NCBI GenBank assembly: GCA_030698575.1
Contig: JAUYMQ010000435.1
Span: 1-17,025, forward strand
Length of the DNA: 17,025 nucleotides
From: Deltaproteobacteria bacterium
GTDB taxonomy: Bacteria > JAUYMQ01
Direction of reading: 5' to 3'
In this document: positions 6,071 to 16,950 of the stretch, in pieces
How the letters are laid out: every line of letters starts with the position of its first letter
How positions within the stretch are numbered: position 1 is the first letter of the stretch
The notes under the pieces: model-generated
The model's input: the letters and a program-made list of their open reading frames with translations, nothing else
The model's database searches: none
Told to the model about the DNA's origin: nothing
Position numbers and translations under genes: made by a program

Positions 6071-6127
6071 TGTCGTGTTGGACGGTGGTGAGTTGGAGAT
6101 GGTGGTAGGCTGGCCCGCCCGCGACCA

Positions 6128-6193
6128 CGGCGCGCTGAAGAACGATTCATTCCACAATCTACGCGCGCCGCCAGCTTCAAGCGCGTGTTAGGG
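6128..6193 (-). repeat. attC relic (damaged integron recombination site)
   Basis: The central loop (GATTCATTCCACAATCTAC) and the arm GCCAGCTTCAAGCGCGTGTTAGGG match the intact attC sites between 10.9 and 16.9 kb almost base for base. The opposite arm, which should carry the L' and R' boxes, is missing: the sequence below about 6131 is unrelated. The remaining core reads GTTAGGG rather than GTTAGGC. It therefore cannot fold as a full attC and is a fossil. In array orientation (minus strand) the broken lipocalin-like gene lies immediately before it, as expected of a cassette. Confidence 0.8.
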
Positions 6194-6222
6194 ACCGGCC
6201 GCACCAAGGCTTCCAGCCAAGA

Positions 6223-6702: not shown

Positions 6703-6723
6703 TCAGGGCAGCATGCGCGATGC
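6703..6723. repeat. Left copy of 21-bp direct repeat bracketing the PadR operon
   Basis: The 21 bases at 6703-6723 match 8950-8970 at 20 of 21 positions, in the same orientation (shared core GCATGCGCGATGC). On the minus strand both copies read as codons for SRM(L/R)P followed by TGA. The two copies bracket the serine hydrolase/HAAS/PadR operon with almost nothing else between. Confidence 0.6.
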
Positions 6724-6733
6724 GCTCCTCCGA

Positions 6734-8949: not shown

Positions 8950-8970
8950 TCAGGGCCGCATGCGCGATGC
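8950..8970. repeat. Right copy of 21-bp direct repeat bracketing the PadR operon
   Basis: It matches 6703-6723 at 20 of 21 bases (A/C difference at the ninth base), same orientation, 2247 bp apart. It lies at the 3' end of the minus-strand gene fragment 8950-9051. Confidence 0.6.
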
Positions 8971-9051
8971 CGTCGTCCGGTCGATGTAGATGATCCCGTC
9001 GAACTCGAGCCGCATCCACCGCCAGCCGGTCAGTGCGACCCTTGGCTCGCG
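8950..9051 (-). pseudogene. 3' gene fragment, unknown product
   Basis: The minus-strand frame ending at TGA 8950-8952 gives a protein-like C-terminus, REPRVALTGWRWMRLEFDG then IIYIDRTTASRMRP, rich in beta-strand-type residues. There is no start codon in a sensible place, and about 30 bp upstream lies the broken half-attC. It fits the 3' end of a former cassette gene whose 5' part was deleted together with the rest of that attC. The remaining part of the PadR-to-attC gap (8835-8949) shows nothing I can name. The family is not recognised. Confidence 0.35.
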
Positions 9052-9082
9052 GCTGCGAAGCGGCCGCCATCCCCAGCTCGCT

Positions 9083-9107
9083 CGGCAGCTTCAACCCCAC
9101 GTTAGCC
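9083..9107 (-). repeat. Half-attC (R''/L'' arm only) of the HNH-RecQ cassette
   Basis: It reads CGGCAGCTTCAACCCCACG then GTTAGCC on the plus strand, corresponding to the R''-L'' arm of the intact sites including the extra base in CTTCAA. The loop and partner arm are absent. Its core GTTAGCC exactly mirrors the GGCTAAC core at 10893-10899, the other end of the same cassette. The TAA stop of the HNH-RecQ gene lies inside the core. Confidence 0.75.
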
Positions 9108-10811
9108 AGCCGGCGCAACAAACTTTACCTTGAGTCCTGTCGATCCCCAAATGCGAGCAGCCCAACCGATGACGCTGTCGACTCGAACCTGGTCGCATTT
9201 GTCACAGCAGCCGTGCGCGCGCGCGATCTGATTGGAACGGGAGAAGAGCCACTCCACAATCCTGACGGCCAGCGTTTGTCGTCGCTGCGTCTGCTCCTCG
9301 CCAAAGTAGCGCACAATGGCTGCTCGAAAACAGACTTCTCGCGCGGTTGCTTGCGCCTGCATCTGGGTGATGCCGTCGTATTTTGCTTGGAGAGCAACGG
9401 TCTTTCCCGCCGGATCGAGATCAGATTTCTCGACCGTCAGGTCTGCCATAAATGTGAGCAACCCAGCGTCCTTAGGTCCCGTGAACAAGACTGCAACCGA
9501 CGGCGCGCCGTCTCGTCCTGCGCGCCCGAACTCCTGCAGGTAGTCCTCTACCGAGGCGGGGTGCTGCCAGTGAACTACCAAGCGCACATTCGGCAGATCG
9601 AGTCCCATTCCAAACGCGTTTGTGCAGATAACAACGCGCGCGGCGGGCTCAAGGCGGCCAGTAAAACGTCCGAGTACCATATCGCGATCATTGGCCGTGC
9701 CGAGTTTGGAGTGAAAGAATGGAACATCCAAACCCAAGGAGCGCAGGCCTTGTTGGAGTTTCTCTCCAATCTTGACGGTAGGCACGAACAGCATGGCGCG
9801 ACCGGGCGGCATGATGCCCAGAAGGGAAATGATCACTGAATACCGCTTCTCATCGGCCACGCCATCAAGGCGCGCGAGAGCAATGTTCGGGCGATTCACT
9901 CCGGTTACAACAACTCGGGCAGTCGGTATCCCGAGTGATTGCAGAATCCGCTTTTGGCTCTCAACTCCAGCAGTGGCAGTAAACGCCAGCAGCGGAGGGT
10001 CGCCGAGAGCAGTACGCACTGCGCGCAATCTGCCGTAGTTCGGGCGAAAGTCCCGTCCCCAACGATCGATACAGTGTGCTTCATCGACCACCAAGTAGCT
10101 CGGCCTAGCCCGCGTGATCTCCTCGACCTCGGCTGGACGTACCATCGCGGAATCGAACCGCTCCGGAGTGCAAAAAAGAAACTTGATCGCGTGATCCCGG
10201 AGAAGCGCGTACCTGATTTCCTTCTCCATGGGTCCGAGATCGCCGTTGATGAATGTTCCTGGGATCTTCCAGGAGTGGAGGTCAGCCACCTGTTGGCTCA
10301 TGAGAGCCTTCAGCGGCGATATGATGAATCCACATCCCCGACCCAGCAGGATCGGCACCTGAAAACAGAGCGATTTGCCCGATCCGGTCGCGCTCACCAG
10401 CAGCAGTGACTCCCCGCGGAGCGCTGCGAGCACGACCTCCAACTGAGGGGTGCGAAAGCGAGTCACGCCAAGCAAGCGCAAAGTCGCTCCCAGTGACTCG
10501 TCGAGACCTGTCAGGTCACCTCGACGATCCAGCCACTTTGCAAGTCGCAAACCCCAACGTTCGATCACCCTGCGAGCGAGCGTGCCCTGCAAGTTGGGAT
10601 GGCGCGCCGCATGGCAACCGTCGCACAGTGTGATCAGATTCGCTGGGTCATCCATGCCCCCAGCTGCACGCGGAACCAGATGGTGTACGTCCGCTTCACC
10701 TTCGGCGCAGAGCTCACCGCACTGCTTACAACGTCGGTTGTCACGAGCGAGAACAACGGCCCGCACCTCGTGCCAGTGCTGTGTACTCGCACCGGAGCGT
10801 GAAGGGCTCAA
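9102..10811 (-). CDS. HNH nuclease-RecQ helicase fusion protein
   Basis: A 569-residue two-part protein. The N-terminal HNH nuclease domain (about 12-72) has zinc ligands C28-x2-C31 and C63-x2-C66, the DVHHLVPRAAGG core with His43/His44, Asn58 and a trailing HAARH. A RecQ-type superfamily 2 helicase follows: Walker A ATGSGKS (141-147), DEAH (243-246), AFTATA (276-281) and QEFGRAGRDG (426-435). A RecQ zinc region follows with Cys494 and CCDKC (535-539). No HRDC domain is present. The predicted activity is 3'-5' DNA unwinding coupled to DNA cleavage. The start is TTG 10811; a later start is possible because the HNH core begins about ten codons in. The TAA stop lies inside the attC core. Occurrence as an integron cassette suggests genome defence (inference). 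Confidence 0.9.
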   Translation of the reverse strand: MSPSRSGASTQHWHEVRAVVLARDNRRCKQCGELCAEGEADVHHLVPRAAGGMDDPANLITLCDGCHAARHPNLQGTLARRVIERWGLRLAKWLDRRGDLTGLDESLGATLRLLGVTRFRTPQLEVVLAALRGESLLLVSATGSGKSLCFQVPILLGRGCGFIISPLKALMSQQVADLHSWKIPGTFINGDLGPMEKEIRYALLRDHAIKFLFCTPERFDSAMVRPAEVEEITRARPSYLVVDEAHCIDRWGRDFRPNYGRLRAVRTALGDPPLLAFTATAGVESQKRILQSLGIPTARVVVTGVNRPNIALARLDGVADEKRYSVIISLLGIMPPGRAMLFVPTVKIGEKLQQGLRSLGLDVPFFHSKLGTANDRDMVLGRFTGRLEPAARVVICTNAFGMGLDLPNVRLVVHWQHPASVEDYLQEFGRAGRDGAPSVAVLFTGPKDAGLLTFMADLTVEKSDLDPAGKTVALQAKYDGITQMQAQATAREVCFRAAIVRYFGEEQTQRRQTLAVRIVEWLFSRSNQIARAHGCCDKCDQVRVDSVIGWAARIWGSTGLKVKFVAPAG

Positions 10812-10870: not shown

Positions 10871-10892
10871 CCTACCAGCAACGCCCGTGGCT

Positions 10893-10982
10893 GGCTAACG
10901 GGGTGCGCTTAAGCTGCGGCGCGCTGAAGAAGAAGTCATTCCTTAATCTACGCGCGCCGTCAGCTTCAAGCGCGTGTTAGGC
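10893..10982 (-). repeat. attC site 1
   Basis: 90 bp, cores GGCTAAC (10893-10899) and GTTAGGC (10976-10982). Arms CGCTTAAGCTG and CAGCTTCAAGCG pair with one extra base. The loop is GAAGAAGAAGTCATTCCTTAA. The mismatched core pair is expected: GGCTAAC belongs to the HNH-RecQ cassette on its left and GTTAGGC to the cassette on its right. Confidence 0.92.
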
Positions 10983-11000
10983 GGCGCGGATTCATATAGT

Positions 11001-12053
11001 AAGTGCAACACCGCCGCCGACGGAAACGGTGACCTGGCGATACGATAGGCAACCAACTCCGCCAAGAGAAGGAAGCCTACCAATGCTGTACCGCCAGATC
11101 ACCTTCGAGGAAAGGTACACCGTGGGGCTGTTGCGGCAGCAGGGTCTCTCCCCCGCCGCCATCGCTCGCACGCTCGGCCGCCACCGCAGCACGATCGGCC
11201 GCGAGGTGCGGCGCAATCGAGCCCACAGTGATGGGACCTACCGGCCCCCGCTCGCCGACTGGTACGCCCGCGGTCGGCGTTCGCGCTCCCGGCGCAATCG
11301 GCAGTTCTCGCCTGAGGAGTGGACGCAGATCCAGGAGCTGCTGCGCGAGGATTGGAGCCCTGAGCAAGTAGCCGGGTGGCTGCGCCGCCACCGCGTGCTG
11401 CGGGTCAGCCACGAGACGATCTATCGCTACATCTGGGCCGAGAAGCGCGCCGGCGGCACGCTCTACCGGCATCTGCGCGGCGCACGCAAGCAGCGCCGCA
11501 AACGCTATGGCCGCTACGACAGCCGCGGCCGCCTGGCCGGCAAGCGCCCGATCACCACGCGGCCCGCGGCGGTCGAGACCCGGCGCGAGCTCGGACATTG
11601 GGAAGGCGACACGATGCTCGGCGCGAGCCAGGCCGGCCCGTGTGTGCTGAGTCTCGTTGAGCGGAAGACCGGCTACTTGCTGCTCGGCCAGTTAGACCAA
11701 CACACCAGCGCGGCGGTGAATCAGCGCGCGCAGCGATTGATTGCTGCGCAGTCCCACCCGGTGCGGACCATCACCGTGGACAACGGCACCGAGTTTCACG
11801 AGTACGCCGCGCTCGAGCGAGCAACCGGGACAGCGTTCTACTTCGCCACGCCGCATCACGCCTGGGAACACGGCACTAACGAAAACACCAATGGCCTGGT
11901 GCGGCAGTACCTACCCAAGCGCCAGAGTATGGCCCACCTCACCCAACACGATTGCAATCGGATCGCTGCGAAACTGAATCGCCGACCACGGAAGCGACTC
12001 AGCTACCGCACACCGGAGGAATGCTATGCGGGATAACGCTCAGTGTTGCACTT
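11001..12053 (+). mobile_element. IS30-family insertion sequence
   Basis: One IS30-type transposase gene is bounded by the 11-bp perfect inverted ends AAGTGCAACAC (11001-11011) and GTGTTGCACTT (12043-12053), giving about 1053 bp. The true ends may lie a few bases further out. I could not find a convincing target-site duplication. It sits 18 bp from the R'' core of attC site 1, inside the cassette of the 212-residue secreted protein and between that gene and its attC. The element is intact and reads opposite to the array. Confidence 0.85.
11083..12036 (+). CDS. IS30-family transposase
   Basis: A 317-residue DDE transposase that cuts and rejoins the ends of its own element. The N-terminal helix-turn-helix is ITFEERYTVGLLRQQGLS, then AIARTLGRHRSTIGREVRRN. 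The catalytic residues are Asp176 in GHWEGDTM, Asp233 in TVDNGTEF and Glu267 in TNENTNGLVRQYLPK, all in canonical IS30 context, so it is probably active. The start is ATG 11083, with AGAGAAGGAAG about 9 bases upstream; the frame is open from 11029, but that region is the terminal non-coding part of the element. It lies on the plus strand, against the cassette genes, and does not interrupt a reading frame. Confidence 0.95.
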   Translation: MLYRQITFEERYTVGLLRQQGLSPAAIARTLGRHRSTIGREVRRNRAHSDGTYRPPLADWYARGRRSRSRRNRQFSPEEWTQIQELLREDWSPEQVAGWLRRHRVLRVSHETIYRYIWAEKRAGGTLYRHLRGARKQRRKRYGRYDSRGRLAGKRPITTRPAAVETRRELGHWEGDTMLGASQAGPCVLSLVERKTGYLLLGQLDQHTSAAVNQRAQRLIAAQSHPVRTITVDNGTEFHEYAALERATGTAFYFATPHHAWEHGTNENTNGLVRQYLPKRQSMAHLTQHDCNRIAAKLNRRPRKRLSYRTPEECYAG

Positions 12054-12077
12054 CAAAGTTGATATCAGACGGCACGA

Positions 12078-12716: not shown

Positions 12717-12727
12717 CTTTGTGTGCC

Positions 12728-12817
12728 GCCTAACGGATCGCGCTTAAGCTGCGGCGCGCTAAAGAAAGATTCATTCCTTAATCTACGCGCGCCGGCAGCT
12801 TCAAGCGCTTGTTAGGC
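12728..12817 (-). repeat. attC site 2
   Basis: 90 bp, cores GCCTAAC (12728-12734) and GTTAGGC (12811-12817), arms CGCTTAAGCTG / CAGCTTCAAGCG, loop of the TTCATTCCTTAATC type. It contains the mini-ORF MNLSLARRSLSAIR (12774 down to TAG at 12730). Confidence 0.95.
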
Positions 12818-12823
12818 GGCAGG

Positions 12824-13492
12824 CTATTTGAAGCGTGGTCGCCAAAGACCATGGCCGCCGCGACGTTTCTCGTCTGCCTCGAGCCCGCTGTCGAGATACC
12901 ACAGGAGCATATAGGCGCCATCTCCCGCGCGCGTTGCGTCGGCATACGCAACCTCGCCCTTTTGATAGTGACCCTCGATGAGATTCATCAACCAGCGCAG
13001 TGACGCGAGTGCCTCTTCCACTTTTGCCCGACTTGCTGGCTCCAGCGGACGCGCTGATGGAGTGGCAGCATGCTCCAGGTCGCGGTGCGCATAAAGGCGG
13101 TGCCGCCAGTCTCGAGCAAACCGGGTCTTGTCCTCGAAATCATCCAGCCCGCGATTCAGCTCACCTCGAAGACCGCCTACGACTAGGGGCGTCAGGCCAC
13201 GGACCGAAACATTGCGCTGGCCCCCGGTTCCAGGCGGGTCAGAGAGGCGGCTCAGGTGAAGGAGTACATCCTGCCACAACACTCGTTCCAGGTTCGAGAA
13301 GAACTCGGGCGCCGTTTTATTCATTAAGGCGATTCGTGATTCGCTCGTCGCGAATAGTTCTCGGAACTCCTGCCACTTGAGGTGCAGCCAGGCCACATCG
13401 TGCCAGAGGAGGAAGTGCAGCTCACCAAGCTCCAGACCCATCGCGGCGATCTTGGCAGCGCGGACTTCCTCTTGAGTGCTAGATGTTGCCAT
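12824..13492 (-). CDS. HEPN_AbiU2-like protein (candidate abortive-infection factor)
   Basis: A 222-residue soluble, mostly helical protein. The stretch LHFLLWHDVAWLHLKWQEFR, then ELFATSESRIALMN and FFSNLERVLWQDVLLHLSRL with SDPPGTGG, matches the AbiU2-type HEPN family. The HEPN catalytic signature is seen as R130-H-R-L-Y-A-H136 followed by RDL, i.e. R-x5-H with a trailing Asp. HEPN proteins of this kind are usually RNases in toxin-antitoxin or abortive-infection systems; AbiU2 is tied to lactococcal phage resistance. No antitoxin gene is visible in this cassette. ATG 13492 lies 14 bp from the core of attC site 3 and has no strong ribosome binding site. The TAG stop lies 7 bp before attC site 2. 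Confidence 0.8.
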   Translation of the reverse strand: MATSSTQEEVRAAKIAAMGLELGELHFLLWHDVAWLHLKWQEFRELFATSESRIALMNKTAPEFFSNLERVLWQDVLLHLSRLSDPPGTGGQRNVSVRGLTPLVVGGLRGELNRGLDDFEDKTRFARDWRHRLYAHRDLEHAATPSARPLEPASRAKVEEALASLRWLMNLIEGHYQKGEVAYADATRAGDGAYMLLWYLDSGLEADEKRRGGHGLWRPRFK

Positions 13493-13506
13493 GGGGCTGA
13501 GCTGCC

Positions 13507-13596
13507 GCCTAACGGATCGCGCTTAAGCTGCGGCGCGCTGACGAAAGACTCATTCCACAATCTACGCGCGCCGCCAGCTTCAAGCGCTTGTTAGGC
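13507..13596 (-). repeat. attC site 3
   Basis: 90 bp, cores GCCTAAC (13507-13513) and GTTAGGC (13590-13596), loop of the CATTCCACAATC subtype. Mini-ORF MSLSSARRSLSAIR ends with TAG at 13509-13511. Confidence 0.95.
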
Positions 13597-13719
13597 GGCG
13601 CGCCAGAGTCGCTTGACGGGGGCTTGACGCTTGTCGGGCACTCTACTGGCATTCGAAACGCGAGCGCTTGATGGCGTGGCGTAGGAGGACGTTCGCCACA
13701 GTGGCTGACAGGAGGCGTT

Positions 13720-13929
13720 ATGCGAAAGCTCAAATGGCTTAGCCTGCTGTTTCCCCTGCTATGCGCTGGAGCTCTCCCGGCGATCACAGCCGGGTGTGAC
13801 GGGTTTGGACTCACCGAACCGGCGTGCCGGAAAGTAGGACAGGAGTGTGGCACCTTTGTGGGATCTTGCTGTGACGGCCCGCATTGGTGCAGGGACACGG
13901 TGAGCGGTCTGGTCTGTCAGGGGCCGTAA
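13720..13929 (+). CDS. Small cysteine-knot-like (knottin pattern) lipoprotein
   Basis: A 69-residue exported protein encoded against the array direction. The signal peptide (1-25) ends in a lipobox ITAGC, with lipidated Cys26 followed by Asp. The mature part has six cysteines in the order C36-x6-C43-x6-C50-C51-x5-C57-x8-C66, the arrangement of inhibitor cystine knots (conotoxin and spider-toxin type) and similar to cysteine-rich repeats in some bacterial surface proteins. Function is unknown; a protease inhibitor, toxin or surface binding module are possibilities. ATG 13720 has a perfect AGGAGG just upstream. Two TTGACG sequences (13613-13618 and 13624-13629) may belong to its own promoter, though no good -10 was found. 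Having its own expression signals fits its reversed orientation. Confidence 0.72.
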   Translation: MRKLKWLSLLFPLLCAGALPAITAGCDGFGLTEPACRKVGQECGTFVGSCCDGPHWCRDTVSGLVCQGP

Positions 13930-13971
13930 ACGTGATGGAAGCTGCCTGCGTTTTAAGTCGGTTTACGCGCC

Positions 13972-14061
13972 GCCTAACGGATCGCGCTTAAGCTGCGGCG
14001 CGCTAAAGAAAGATTCATTCCACAATCTACGCGCGCCGCCAGCTTCAAGCGCTTGTTAGGC
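13972..14061 (-). repeat. attC site 4
   Basis: 90 bp, cores GCCTAAC (13972-13978) and GTTAGGC (14055-14061), CATTCCACAATC loop subtype. Mini-ORF MNLSLARRSLSAIR from 14018 to TAG at 13974. Confidence 0.95.
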
Positions 14062-14085
14062 GGCGCGGACACCGAGGCGAGTCCT

Positions 14086-14547
14086 CTATAGCTGGGAGCG
14101 ATGTTCGTAACGGAAGAGTCGTCCAGCATACACAGGGCGCTCCAGCAGCACTGAGTCTCGTGAGAAAACGCCAAACTCCGGCAACGGACAGAGAGCGTTC
14201 GGAGGACACGTGAAATGTCCGATCATGAGGCTATCTGCGCGCACGCGATACCCTGAACGATGTGTCACGGTTTGCGCCGCAACCCCGATGATGTCAAGAC
14301 TGTCGCGCCGCCAACTGAATACGCGCGTCGCCGCCCCCTGGCCATCAAACCCGATGGTCTCAGATAGCAACCATAGTGTCTGTCCATTCTCGCTCCAGAG
14401 TAGTACAGGCAGTGGCTGCGCGTCGACGCTTGTGAGCGCATATGAGCCCTGCAGCTCGGATTCCGGCCCTAAGGTCGTTTCCCCACAGGCAGCCAGCACC
14501 AACGTGGTCATGAGCATCGATCGAGCACGAACGGAGGTGTAGGCCAT
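14086..14547 (-). CDS. Lipoprotein of unknown function (cassette gene)
   Basis: A 153-residue lipoprotein. The signal sequence ends MLMTTLVLAACGE with lipobox LAAC. The mature part begins with an extended linker (GETTLGPESE) and then LQGSYALTSVDAQPLPVLL, a pattern seen in small beta-barrel (lipocalin-like) lipoproteins, followed by alternating beta-strand-type segments and two cysteines in HFTCPPNALCPLPEFG. ATG 14547 has TGAGG about 6 bases upstream and lies 27 bp from the core of attC site 5. The stop lies 25 bp before attC site 4. The lipocalin-like assignment is tentative; no active site is visible. Confidence 0.78.
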   Translation of the reverse strand: MAYTSVRARSMLMTTLVLAACGETTLGPESELQGSYALTSVDAQPLPVLLWSENGQTLWLLSETIGFDGQGAATRVFSWRRDSLDIIGVAAQTVTHRSGYRVRADSLMIGHFTCPPNALCPLPEFGVFSRDSVLLERPVYAGRLFRYEHRSQL

Positions 14548-14573
14548 GGCTTACCTCACTTTGTTTGCGTGCC

Positions 14574-14663
14574 GCCTAACGGATCGCGCTTAAGCTGCGG
14601 CGCGCTGAAGAAAGATTCATTCCTTAATCTACGCGCGCCGCCAGCTTCAAGCGCTTGTTAGGC
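14574..14663 (-). repeat. attC site 5
   Basis: 90 bp, cores GCCTAAC (14574-14580) and GTTAGGC (14657-14663), CATTCCTTAATC loop subtype. Mini-ORF MNLSSARRSLSAIR from 14620 to TAG at 14576. Confidence 0.95.
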
Positions 14664-14670
14664 GGCGGAC

Positions 14671-14940
14671 TCAAGAACCGGAAGCCTGCGCGAAGCTGCG
14701 AATCATCCACCCGAGCGCGACGATCGCTAGGATGAGGACGATGCGAACCCAGGTTAGGAGACCTTGGCCGCCCTCATCATAAGTATCGCGAGATAGGAAC
14801 TCGGTGATGGGTGCTGGTGCGGCGAAAATGCCGTCCCCGTTTTGCCGATCTCGCCGAAATGCGCTCAGGCGCAAGAGCGAGATGATGTAGACAAGACTGA
14901 GGCCGAAGGCAACGTAGAACGCCTGCGGGACATCTTGCAT
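14671..14940 (-). CDS. Small two-helix membrane protein (cassette gene)
   Basis: An 89-residue protein with two predicted membrane helices: VAFGLSLVYIISLLRLSAF near the N-terminus and LLTWVRIVLILAIVALGWMI near the C-terminus, joined by a polar segment of about 40 residues. No family is recognised. ATG 14940 is chosen because GAGGG precedes it at good spacing; the longer frame starting at 15018 translates attC site 6 and is not considered part of the protein. The stop lies 8 bp before attC site 5, the usual cassette layout. Function unknown. Confidence 0.75.
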   Translation of the reverse strand: MQDVPQAFYVAFGLSLVYIISLLRLSAFRRDRQNGDGIFAAPAPITEFLSRDTYDEGGQGLLTWVRIVLILAIVALGWMIRSFAQASGS

Positions 14941-14964
14941 GTCGAACCCTCGGTCGAATCCGCC

Positions 14965-15057
14965 GCCTAACGGATCGCGCTTAAGCTGCGGCGCGCTGAA
15001 GAAAAAGTCGTCATTCAATATCCTGTGCGCGCCGCCAGCTTCAAGCGCTTGTTAGGC
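14965..15057 (-). repeat. attC site 6 (divergent loop, 93 bp)
   Basis: Cores GCCTAAC (14965-14971) and GTTAGGC (15051-15057). The loop is 3 bp longer and diverged (AAAAAGTCGTCATTCAATAT), yet the embedded mini-ORF stays in frame (MTTFSSARRSLSAIR, TAG at 14967-14969). Confidence 0.93.
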
Positions 15058-15082
15058 GGCACCATACCCACCGGAATACCTC

Positions 15083-16042
15083 CTAGCGTCGGAACCAGGG
15101 CTGAAGGTCGACGCCGGTGTGTTCGTACGCTCGTGAAAGCAGCTCCTCTGTGTTCAGCCTGCGATCCACCTGCCACACCGCGCGAAACCACGCTCGCATC
15201 CGGTCCAGCCCGGCAGTCTTCTCCAGCATCTCGAACAAGGCCAGCGATGCGCCGTAACGTGCGAGCGCGTTCGATTCGTCACTGATCATATCACCAGAGC
15301 CGAACCGGAAGGGTCCCGGAGGCGAGTAACTCGGATCGGTCTCCATTCGCGCGCGTTGCTCGGGTGTGACCTGTCGCAGAATGGCCTCTCGCTTCACGGT
15401 GACACCTCCCCATCCAGAGAGGTTGAGCGGTTCGCTCAGCGACTCATAGGCGTTCCTGAGTTCGGTACGCCTCTCCTGCGCCAGAACCGGTGCTCTACGT
15501 TGCGTCACATGCAGGCCGGCCCATTCGGCCATACCTTCGGCGAACCAACGAGGCGGCTCGGAGCCGAGCGTACTTTGGATTGCGTGTACCTGCTCGTGGG
15601 GGAGCGTCTGGTACAAGTCCCTCTCCCCCACAGGACCGAGGTGCCGAGACGGATCAACAAGAACATTCCAGCGCACCTCGCCGCTGCGGCGCGGCGGAAC
15701 GTAGCCGGAGTCCTGAACGAACGCGACAGCGGACCAATCAACCAAGCCAGGATCGACAGCCACCAACATGGCGGCTTCGCGACACAGGGCAGCGATCGTC
15801 GGAATGTACGTTCGGGCAACGTGCTCTACCGCGGCATCGTAATAAGCCCGGAATACGAGTCCGGTGGCGAGATCAACTGCACGGAGCACCGGAAGGTCCT
15901 CCGGCTGAGGACGGAGCTGAGCAATCTTCAGCGACGCCCGCTGTTCCTGTACGAGGGCGGCACGCCCGGAAGCACAAGCCGCAACAAGAGTCGACCCAAG
16001 CTGGACGGCCAGGCTCAGGCCCACCGCCGTGGATCTTGTCAT
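15083..16042 (-). CDS. HExxH zinc metallopeptidase lipoprotein (peptidase MA-like)
   Basis: A 319-residue exported protein with lipobox LVAAC (Cys23). The zinc-peptidase site is complete: H149-E-Q-V-H153 in LPHEQVHAIQ, with a third ligand candidate Glu169 in RWFAEGMAEWAG, 16 residues after the second histidine, as in the MA-like gluzincin peptidases. The C-terminal part is helical (SNALARYGASLALFEMLEK and onward), as usual for this family. It probably cleaves proteins at the cell envelope. ATG 16042 lies 40 bp from the core of attC site 7; the TAG lies 26 bp before attC site 6. Start and family are well supported, substrate unknown. Confidence 0.85.
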   Translation of the reverse strand: MTRSTAVGLSLAVQLGSTLVAACASGRAALVQEQRASLKIAQLRPQPEDLPVLRAVDLATGLVFRAYYDAAVEHVARTYIPTIAALCREAAMLVAVDPGLVDWSAVAFVQDSGYVPPRRSGEVRWNVLVDPSRHLGPVGERDLYQTLPHEQVHAIQSTLGSEPPRWFAEGMAEWAGLHVTQRRAPVLAQERRTELRNAYESLSEPLNLSGWGGVTVKREAILRQVTPEQRARMETDPSYSPPGPFRFGSGDMISDESNALARYGASLALFEMLEKTAGLDRMRAWFRAVWQVDRRLNTEELLSRAYEHTGVDLQPWFRR

Positions 16043-16081
16043 CTGGTACGTCCCAGCTAAGGGGCCATGGTGTTGTGTGCC

Positions 16082-16171
16082 GCCTAACGGAGTGCGCTTA
16101 AGCTGCGGCGCGCTGAAAAAAGATTCATTCCTTAATCTACGCGCGCCGTCAGCTTCAAGCGCTGGTTAGAC
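16082..16171 (-). repeat. attC site 7
   Basis: 90 bp, cores GCCTAAC (16082-16088) and GTTAGAC (16165-16171). The R'' core GTTAGAC contains the stop codon of the DUF2238 gene and matches GTCTAAC at 16840-16846, the other end of that cassette. Mini-ORF MNLFSARRSLSALR ends with TAG at 16084-16086. Confidence 0.94.
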
Positions 16172-16795
16172 AGCGGCGACACCCTCGGGCTGGCCCAGCA
16201 GTCTCCTCAGGGCGCGGTCATGCACTTTGCTGAGCACGAGCTGCGCGGTAATCGCCCCGATCAACGCGAGGAACATATCCCATTGCGTGTCCCACACGTC
16301 GCCTTGCGTCCCAAGGAAGGCCTCGGCGCTCTCCCCGCCGGCCAGCGCGGACCACCACTCGATGAATTCGTAACACGCACTGAAGGCCAAACACACTGCC
16401 GTGACGAGCACGAACAGCCAGCGGCCAGGGCGGAGCGGCGAGGTCCGTACGAGAATCTCGCGTACGAGCATGGCCGGGATGAAACCCTGGGCAAAGTGCC
16501 CCAGGCGATCATAATGGTTCCGTGCAAAGCCGAAGAGGTCCTGGGCCCAGAACCCGAGCGGCACGCGGGCGTACGTGTAATGCCCGCCTACCATGAGGAT
16601 GAGCGCATGGACCGCCAATAGCGTGTACAAAAGGGGGGTGAGAGGAAAGCGGCGATAGATGGCCACCAGGATCGGGGCCCCGATCAGGATGGGAAAGATC
16701 TCCAGCCACCACGTGGTACGGTCGTACGGCGCGAGTCCCGACAGCGCGAGCGCGACCGCGATCAGGATGAGTAGAGTGAGGGGATAGTGCTTCAT
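16166..16795 (-). CDS. DUF2238 (YjdF-family) inner-membrane protein
   Basis: A 209-residue membrane protein with about six hydrophobic helices. Characteristic family motifs are visible: HYDRLGHFAQGF in the middle, CYEFIEWW, and near the C-terminus FLGTQGDVWDTQWDM. Escherichia coli YjdF belongs to this family, whose role is not established; the length is normal. ATG 16795 is preceded by a small hairpin (16802-16816) that could cover the translation start region. The TAA stop (16166-16168) is part of the attC core itself. It is the only recognisable housekeeping-type membrane protein among the cassettes. Confidence 0.9.
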   Translation of the reverse strand: MKHYPLTLLILIAVALALSGLAPYDRTTWWLEIFPILIGAPILVAIYRRFPLTPLLYTLLAVHALILMVGGHYTYARVPLGFWAQDLFGFARNHYDRLGHFAQGFIPAMLVREILVRTSPLRPGRWLFVLVTAVCLAFSACYEFIEWWSALAGGESAEAFLGTQGDVWDTQWDMFLALIGAITAQLVLSKVHDRALRRLLGQPEGVAAV

Positions 16796-16801
16796 CGAAG
16801 A

Positions 16802-16816
16802 CCCCGTCAGTCGGGG
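16802..16816 (-). promoter_or_regulatory. Hairpin just upstream of the DUF2238 start codon
   Basis: CCCCG (16802-16806) and CGGGG (16812-16816) form a perfect 5-bp stem with a 5-base loop, ending 7 bp before the ATG. The only ribosome-binding-like bases (GGGG) fall within the stem, so it may reduce translation. Confidence 0.3.
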
Positions 16817-16839
16817 GACAGGACCGGTTCGTAGCCGCT

Positions 16840-16929
16840 GTCTAACGGATCGCGCTTAAGCTGCGGCGCGCTAAAGAAAGATTCATTCCACAATCTACGC
16901 GCGCCGCCAGCTTCAAGCGCTTGTTAGGC
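16840..16929 (-). repeat. attC site 8
   Basis: 90 bp, cores GTCTAAC (16840-16846) and GTTAGGC (16923-16929), CATTCCACAATC loop subtype. Mini-ORF MNLSLARRSLSAIR from 16886 to TAG at 16842. The GTCTAAC core differs from the usual GCCTAAC and marks the start of the DUF2238 cassette. Confidence 0.95.
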
Positions 16930-16950
16930 GGCAGATTGCGCCGATACGTG

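Follow-up and report, generated by a model that had tools for sequence, protein, structure and literature searches.

The window, which is the whole 17,025-nucleotide stretch of deltaproteobacterial DNA analysed here, carries an array of integron cassettes that includes a gene joining an HNH nuclease to a RecQ-type helicase (HNH-RecQ; Table 1). The reading frame of this gene stays open slightly upstream of its listed start codon. The array also contains a cassette for an AbiU2-like HEPN protein, which by its Pfam match is likely a second abortive-infection gene. An IS30-type element (10998-12060), with its transposase on the plus strand (11029-12036) and AAGTGCAACAC at both ends as short inverted repeats, is inserted in a cassette, adjoining an attC site.

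Table 1. Features of the HNH-RecQ gene and its cassette array in the window
Feature	Position	Strand	Details
HNH-RecQ fusion gene	9102..10811	minus	569 aa, TTG start as listed
HNH nuclease domain, aa 28-71	10599..10730	minus	CxxC, HH, N, CxxCH, H; Pfam HNH 1.7e-9
DEAD/RecA-like domain 1, aa 122-286	9954..10448	minus	Walker A and DEAH; Pfam DEAD 5.8e-24
Helicase C/RecA-like domain 2, aa 325-435	9507..9839	minus	Pfam Helicase_C 2.7e-17
RecQ-type zinc region, C494, C535, C536, C539	9195..9332	minus	Invariant cysteines and a weak Pfam match
attC R' (GTTAGCC), upstream end	10893..10899	minus	HNH-RecQ cassette begins at 10898
attC of the preceding cassette	10886..10985	minus	attC scan
R'' (GGCTGGCTAAC) of the HNH-RecQ cassette's own attC	9101..9111	minus	Stop codon inside; pairs with cassette start
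L''-like remnant (GTGGGGTTGAAGCTGCCGAGCGA) of the HNH-RecQ attC	9078..9100	minus	Second half (L'-R') absent
Rest of cassette array	12721..16932	minus	7 complete attC: 12721, 13500, 13965, 14567, 14958, 16075, 16833
AbiU2-like HEPN cassette, same array	12824..13492	minus	Pfam PF18734 2.7e-21

A first-pass annotation had read the protein as an N-terminal HNH domain with a full set of zinc ligands, followed by a RecQ helicase core and zinc region without HRDC, and profile searches bear out this architecture. The HNH domain belongs to the HNH nuclease superfamily (38.1 bits, Pfam cut-off 21.4), and its residues C28, C31, H43, H44, N58, C63, C66, H67, and H71 are invariant in an alignment of 30 relatives, as are T142, G143, G145, and K146 of Walker A, the DEAH box at 243-246, and the four cysteines of the zinc region. 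The protein falls within the RecQ family as defined by NCBIfam TIGR00614 (266.5 bits, cut-off 219.8) and outside the housekeeping RecQ equivalog TIGR01389, where it reaches 278 bits of the 640 required. In the zinc region an insertion separates C494 from the later cysteines, and the Pfam RecQ_Zn_bind match (1.6e-4) scores 22.8, slightly below the cut-off of 25; the region is identified by its invariant cysteines and by structural superposition up to residue 543. No Pfam match to HRDC or to an RQC/winged helix occurs in the protein, and neither follows the zinc region.

In the AlphaFold model (mean pLDDT 84.3), the stretch between about residue 97 and residue 543 fits onto RecQ cores. The top fold match is a construct of BLM (7aud; Z 35.7, rmsd 3.4, 410 aligned residues), and RecQ from Deinococcus radiodurans (4q48) aligns over 389 residues (Z 34.0, rmsd 2.6). 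HNH-RecQ thus shares its helicase core and zinc region with canonical RecQ proteins such as E. coli RecQ, BLM, and RECQL5, but has an added N-terminal HNH, and the winged helix and HRDC were not found. A Foldseek search with the HNH model returned nothing at an E-value below 0.001; EcoKMcrA and the Gme HNH nickase came first among weak matches, with ZRANB3 lower. The HNH assignment therefore rests on sequence profiles, which matched McrA, IscB/Cas9 HNH, and others, and on the conserved residues. EcoKMcrA and the Gme nickase carry an HNH domain with the same ligands but have no helicase, and their weak likeness to HNH-RecQ is confined to that domain.

In an integron, each cassette begins with R' bases of its own and finishes with its own R''. 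Eight attC sites in the window are complete, and all of them lie on the minus strand; the two that were tested for folding gave z-scores of -6.8 and -4.3. The array runs toward lower coordinates and HNH-RecQ is its last cassette. Cassettes in the window usually pair GTTAGGCGGC with GCCGCCTAAC; in the HNH-RecQ cassette the opening bases TTAGCCAGCC pair with the terminal GGCTGGCTAAC, and that R'' alone reflects the altered base found where the cassette starts (GTTAGCCAGCC). Another cassette of the window shows matching covariation (GTTAGACAGC with GCTGTCTAAC). The covariation between cassette start and R'' is strong evidence that HNH-RecQ is a genuine cassette whose attC differs from those of its neighbours. 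The attC scan detected no complete, folded attC 3' of the gene, where only the R'' and the L''-like remnant are found; with the second half of the site gone, the cassette is probably locked in place on its 3' side. A lone truncated attC, which has lost the same half, lies at 6110-6196 beside chromosomal genes, and between these two truncated sites a 30-nt direct repeat (87%) occurs at 6703-6732 and 8950-8979.

The genome encodes an integron integrase (450.8 bits, cut-off 265) on the 3.9-kb contig C206, which has no matching attC, and more attC sites like those in the window occur on contigs C364 and C308 of the same genome. Carriage as an integron cassette, claimed in the first-pass annotation, holds for the covarying ends and for a reading frame bounded by attC sequence within an attC array, but not for a complete attC belonging to the gene itself, and in the draft assembly the array and the integrase lie on separate contigs. 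No sigma-70-like promoter was found immediately upstream of the cassette; given this and its last place in a partial array, HNH-RecQ may be silent in the window genome. These features, together with the truncated attC and the broken or partial state of three relatives (L045, L046, and L091; loci of relatives are given L numbers), would suit a decaying or silent passenger with no present function in this genome. Against such a passenger, the reading frame of the window copy is open over its full length and has kept every invariant residue, and we regard this explanation as very unlikely.

A second cassette copy comes from the closest relative of the window protein, L016 (73% identity), which also lies in a cassette array. 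Its stop codon is followed, after 15 nt, by an attC that has an extrahelical G and in which 8 of 8 arm bases are paired; comparable attC-like hits arose in 2 of 500 shuffles of the contig and once in 0.5 Mb of other family loci. The gene that comes after L016 encodes an Mrr-type nuclease (Mrr_cat).

Relatives were collected by scanning 84,980 species genomes and fetching 80 loci, of which about 31, the best-matching ones, encode the HNH-RecQ family. About 30 members are full-length, and they come from several phyla. Every relative with at least 41% identity to the window protein has the HNH domain, save the truncated or broken L040, L045, L046, and L091, and RecQ relatives at 38% identity or below all lack it, leaving a clear gap between the two sets. 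All HNH-bearing proteins cluster together with 100/100 support in a tree of helicase cores that includes one flagged outgroup row on a long branch. Members of this group come from Pseudomonadota, Verrucomicrobiota, Actinomycetota, the window genome, and phage contigs; within it the window protein groups with L016 and with L017, a protein from Verrucomicrobia. Judged by these sequences, the fusion is a discrete family of single origin. A search of the phylum to which the window genome belongs gave no genome besides that one, and the relatives search gave distant genomes only. Matches in a collection of plasmid records were partial or HNH-less, and none in a collection of phage records included the HNH part, the alignments beginning near residue 93. 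Mesorhizobium sophorae carries two diverged copies in one genome, at different loci (L025 and L031).

Presence of the family is patchy, as in one Mesorhizobium genus where 11 of 146 genomes encode it, and a separate, stronger match to canonical RecQ was found in 12 of 15 host genomes. On these grounds housekeeping RecQ was rejected as the family-wide role. The window genome (91.6% completeness) has no second RecQ above the cut-off, so a housekeeping role within that genome is possible. This absence, shared in the sense that 3 of the 15 hosts have no separate canonical RecQ, also favours an accessory enzyme of DNA repair or of the replication fork, that is, a structure-specific helicase-nuclease that trims forks or recombination intermediates and spreads by transfer with no part in defence. 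RecQ cores work on forks, and human ZRANB3, to whose HNH the HNH model weakly matches, joins such a domain to an SNF2 motor. A repair role combined with horizontal spread would also give a partly similar pattern. The patchy presence, the separate canonical RecQ of most hosts, the carriage by phages and cassettes, and the lack of a conserved repair neighbourhood all speak against the repair enzyme, which we consider unlikely while giving it real weight.

Gene order around the family is not conserved among relatives and their positions are scattered. Several copies adjoin defence genes within about 3.2 kb: GajA and GajB of Gabija together with HmaA (L017), SIR2 and HerA (L026), a DruE of 1957 aa, the Druantia helicase (L027), the Zorya helicase ZorD (L038), a type III methyltransferase (L035), and a type IIG enzyme (L030); the Mrr-type nuclease gene of L016 falls inside this distance too. 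In relatives from Roseomonas, genes encoding MrcB_N and HNH domains, which resemble type IV restriction enzymes, lie immediately downstream (L036:1926-3455 and L038:9791-10909). Most copies from Rhizobiales have no recognised defence gene adjoining them in the stretch examined. Neighbours of the family, 175 in all and searched in two halves, matched 105 and 84 PADLOC families at 1e-15; the 130 genes neighbouring canonical RecQ matched 4, the strongest at 2.9e-46. Because the control was not matched to the family in taxonomy, and because families were counted and one gene can match many, this excess is evidence of direction and not a measured enrichment. Read with the same difference in taxonomy in mind, members of the family turn up repeatedly in mobile elements and beside defence systems, and the control neighbourhoods of canonical RecQ are nearly empty of such genes. 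The first-pass annotation had proposed a DNA-targeting defence role, to be abandoned if most homologues were found in conserved repair loci. This is not the case: their positions are scattered, their neighbours unconserved, and defence and restriction genes recurrent, and the context lends support to a defence function that is itself deduced from such evidence.

No conserved partner gene recurs beside the family. The only recurrent neighbours are the His-Xaa-Ser radical SAM/RiPP genes HxsA, HxsB, and HxsC in loci from Mesorhizobium and Aminobacter (L021, L024, L025, L029, L037, and in part L031). Their orientation and their distance from HNH-RecQ both vary, and HxsABC was set aside as a partner and taken to mark a probable shared insertion region, with a real link as the other possibility. 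In two loci a gene encoding NYN and OST-HTH (LOTUS) domains begins about 45 bp downstream on the same strand (L022:9708-10496 and L037:9707-10510).

HNH-RecQ is also carried by three viral contigs in IMG/VR, which represent two kinds of phage contig. In L096 genes for a primase and a Cas4-type exonuclease precede it and a phage HNH gene follows, and in L098 (2380-4059) it sits within the tail module, with a minor tail protein on one side and the tape measure gene on the other. Exclusion of rival phages by phage-carried genes has been shown for the P2 and P4 hotspots (PMC9122126), and by analogy phage carriage of HNH-RecQ is compatible with such exclusion. The phage copies could also mean that this is a gene of mobile elements, serving their replication, their recombination, or their attack on competing elements, and only sometimes captured by integrons and chromosomes. 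Its place in a DNA-metabolism module in L096 and in a tail module in L098 would agree with that, as would the nesting of phage copies inside chromosomal branches of the tree. With just the three viral contigs in IMG/VR, no match to the HNH part in the phage records, and most copies chromosomal, several of them beside defence genes, a mobile-element gene is quite unlikely, and an attack on rival phages would count as defence anyway.

In PADLOC, the top model for the window protein is PDLC02859, labelled DpdF (1.5e-180), which covers aa 20-541 with a profile of 545 positions and thus evidently represents the same protein family as HNH-RecQ. On the strength of this nearly full-length match, the protein might be counted among the components of Dpd, a system of DNA modification and restriction based on 7-deazaguanine. 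The NCBIfam DpdF model contradicts the label, since the window protein, at 139 bits, falls far short of its 550-bit cut-off and matches in the helicase part only. Moreover, no strong match to DpdA-D appears among the matches listed for the 175 neighbours, and the DpdE matches listed there trace to cross-hits by the ZorD protein. With the DpdF cut-off missed and no Dpd partners among the listed matches, Dpd membership was rejected, and its chance of being correct is exceedingly small.

Other known systems resemble HNH-RecQ in part. Like RqlH and PsyrT of the RqlHI and PsyrTA systems, it is a RecQ-like helicase with a fused effector domain found in accessory loci, and the PsyrT model matches its helicase part with 218 bits. 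RqlH, which RqlI keeps in check, has its PRTase at the C-terminus (PMC4670107). HNH-RecQ instead has an N-terminal HNH; no PRTase match was obtained in the protein, which places it outside these systems along with the lack of a recurrent partner. In Hachiman (HamAB), a sensor helicase releases a nuclease on aberrant DNA (PMC12278908). The likeness lies in a helicase sensor tied to an effector nuclease and triggered by the state of DNA, but Hachiman consists of two proteins with another helicase and a DUF1837 nuclease, and membership is not claimed for HNH-RecQ. DruE of Druantia III is an SF2 helicase-nuclease effector that loads on intermediates containing 3' ssDNA (PMC13192584). Its helicase is YprA-like, its nuclease is of the PLD type, and it has a partner, DruH; kinship with HNH-RecQ is limited to helicase motifs. 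The first-pass annotation knew of no described system with this exact architecture. The open literature searched, which leaves out most subscription papers, likewise yielded no test or description of such a system, but the family is already known as a mislabelled database profile.

Taken with the cassette and its relatives, HNH-RecQ is rather likely to be a stand-alone, one-gene defence against phages, plasmids, or both, mobilised here as an integron cassette. Anti-phage genes are known experimentally in chromosomal integron cassettes, accounting for about 10% of them in Vibrio cholerae (Darracq et al., as summarised in PMC12409362). A fuller version, to which we give an even chance, describes an uncharacterised single-protein defence in which intermediates of foreign replication or recombination are sensed by the RecQ motor and cut by the HNH domain, with no need of a partner, guide, or modification, and which is spread by integrons, phages, and defence islands. 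The motor would load on single-stranded or branched DNA exposed by a replicating or recombining invader and track 3' to 5' on ATP, bringing the N-terminal HNH domain to the invading DNA, which it would nick or cut. The target would be recognised by its structure or state; since no specificity subunit, methyltransferase or other modification enzyme, or obligate partner travels with HNH-RecQ, recognition by DNA state is likely. The logic of this mechanism is borrowed by analogy from Hachiman and from DruE of Druantia III. Its footing is the observed domains, the intact catalytic residues, the cassette status, the unity of the family, and the mobile and defence-rich contexts, from which we infer restriction of phages or plasmids, including the choice of substrate and its cleavage.

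If correct, this reading would add to bacterial immunity a compact helicase-nuclease encoded by one gene, of a size that fits an integron cassette. The database label would need correction, as genomes scored positive for DpdF in PADLOC through the PDLC02859 profile would not be Dpd genomes. In this family, a RecQ repair motor would have been recruited as a sensor of invading DNA.
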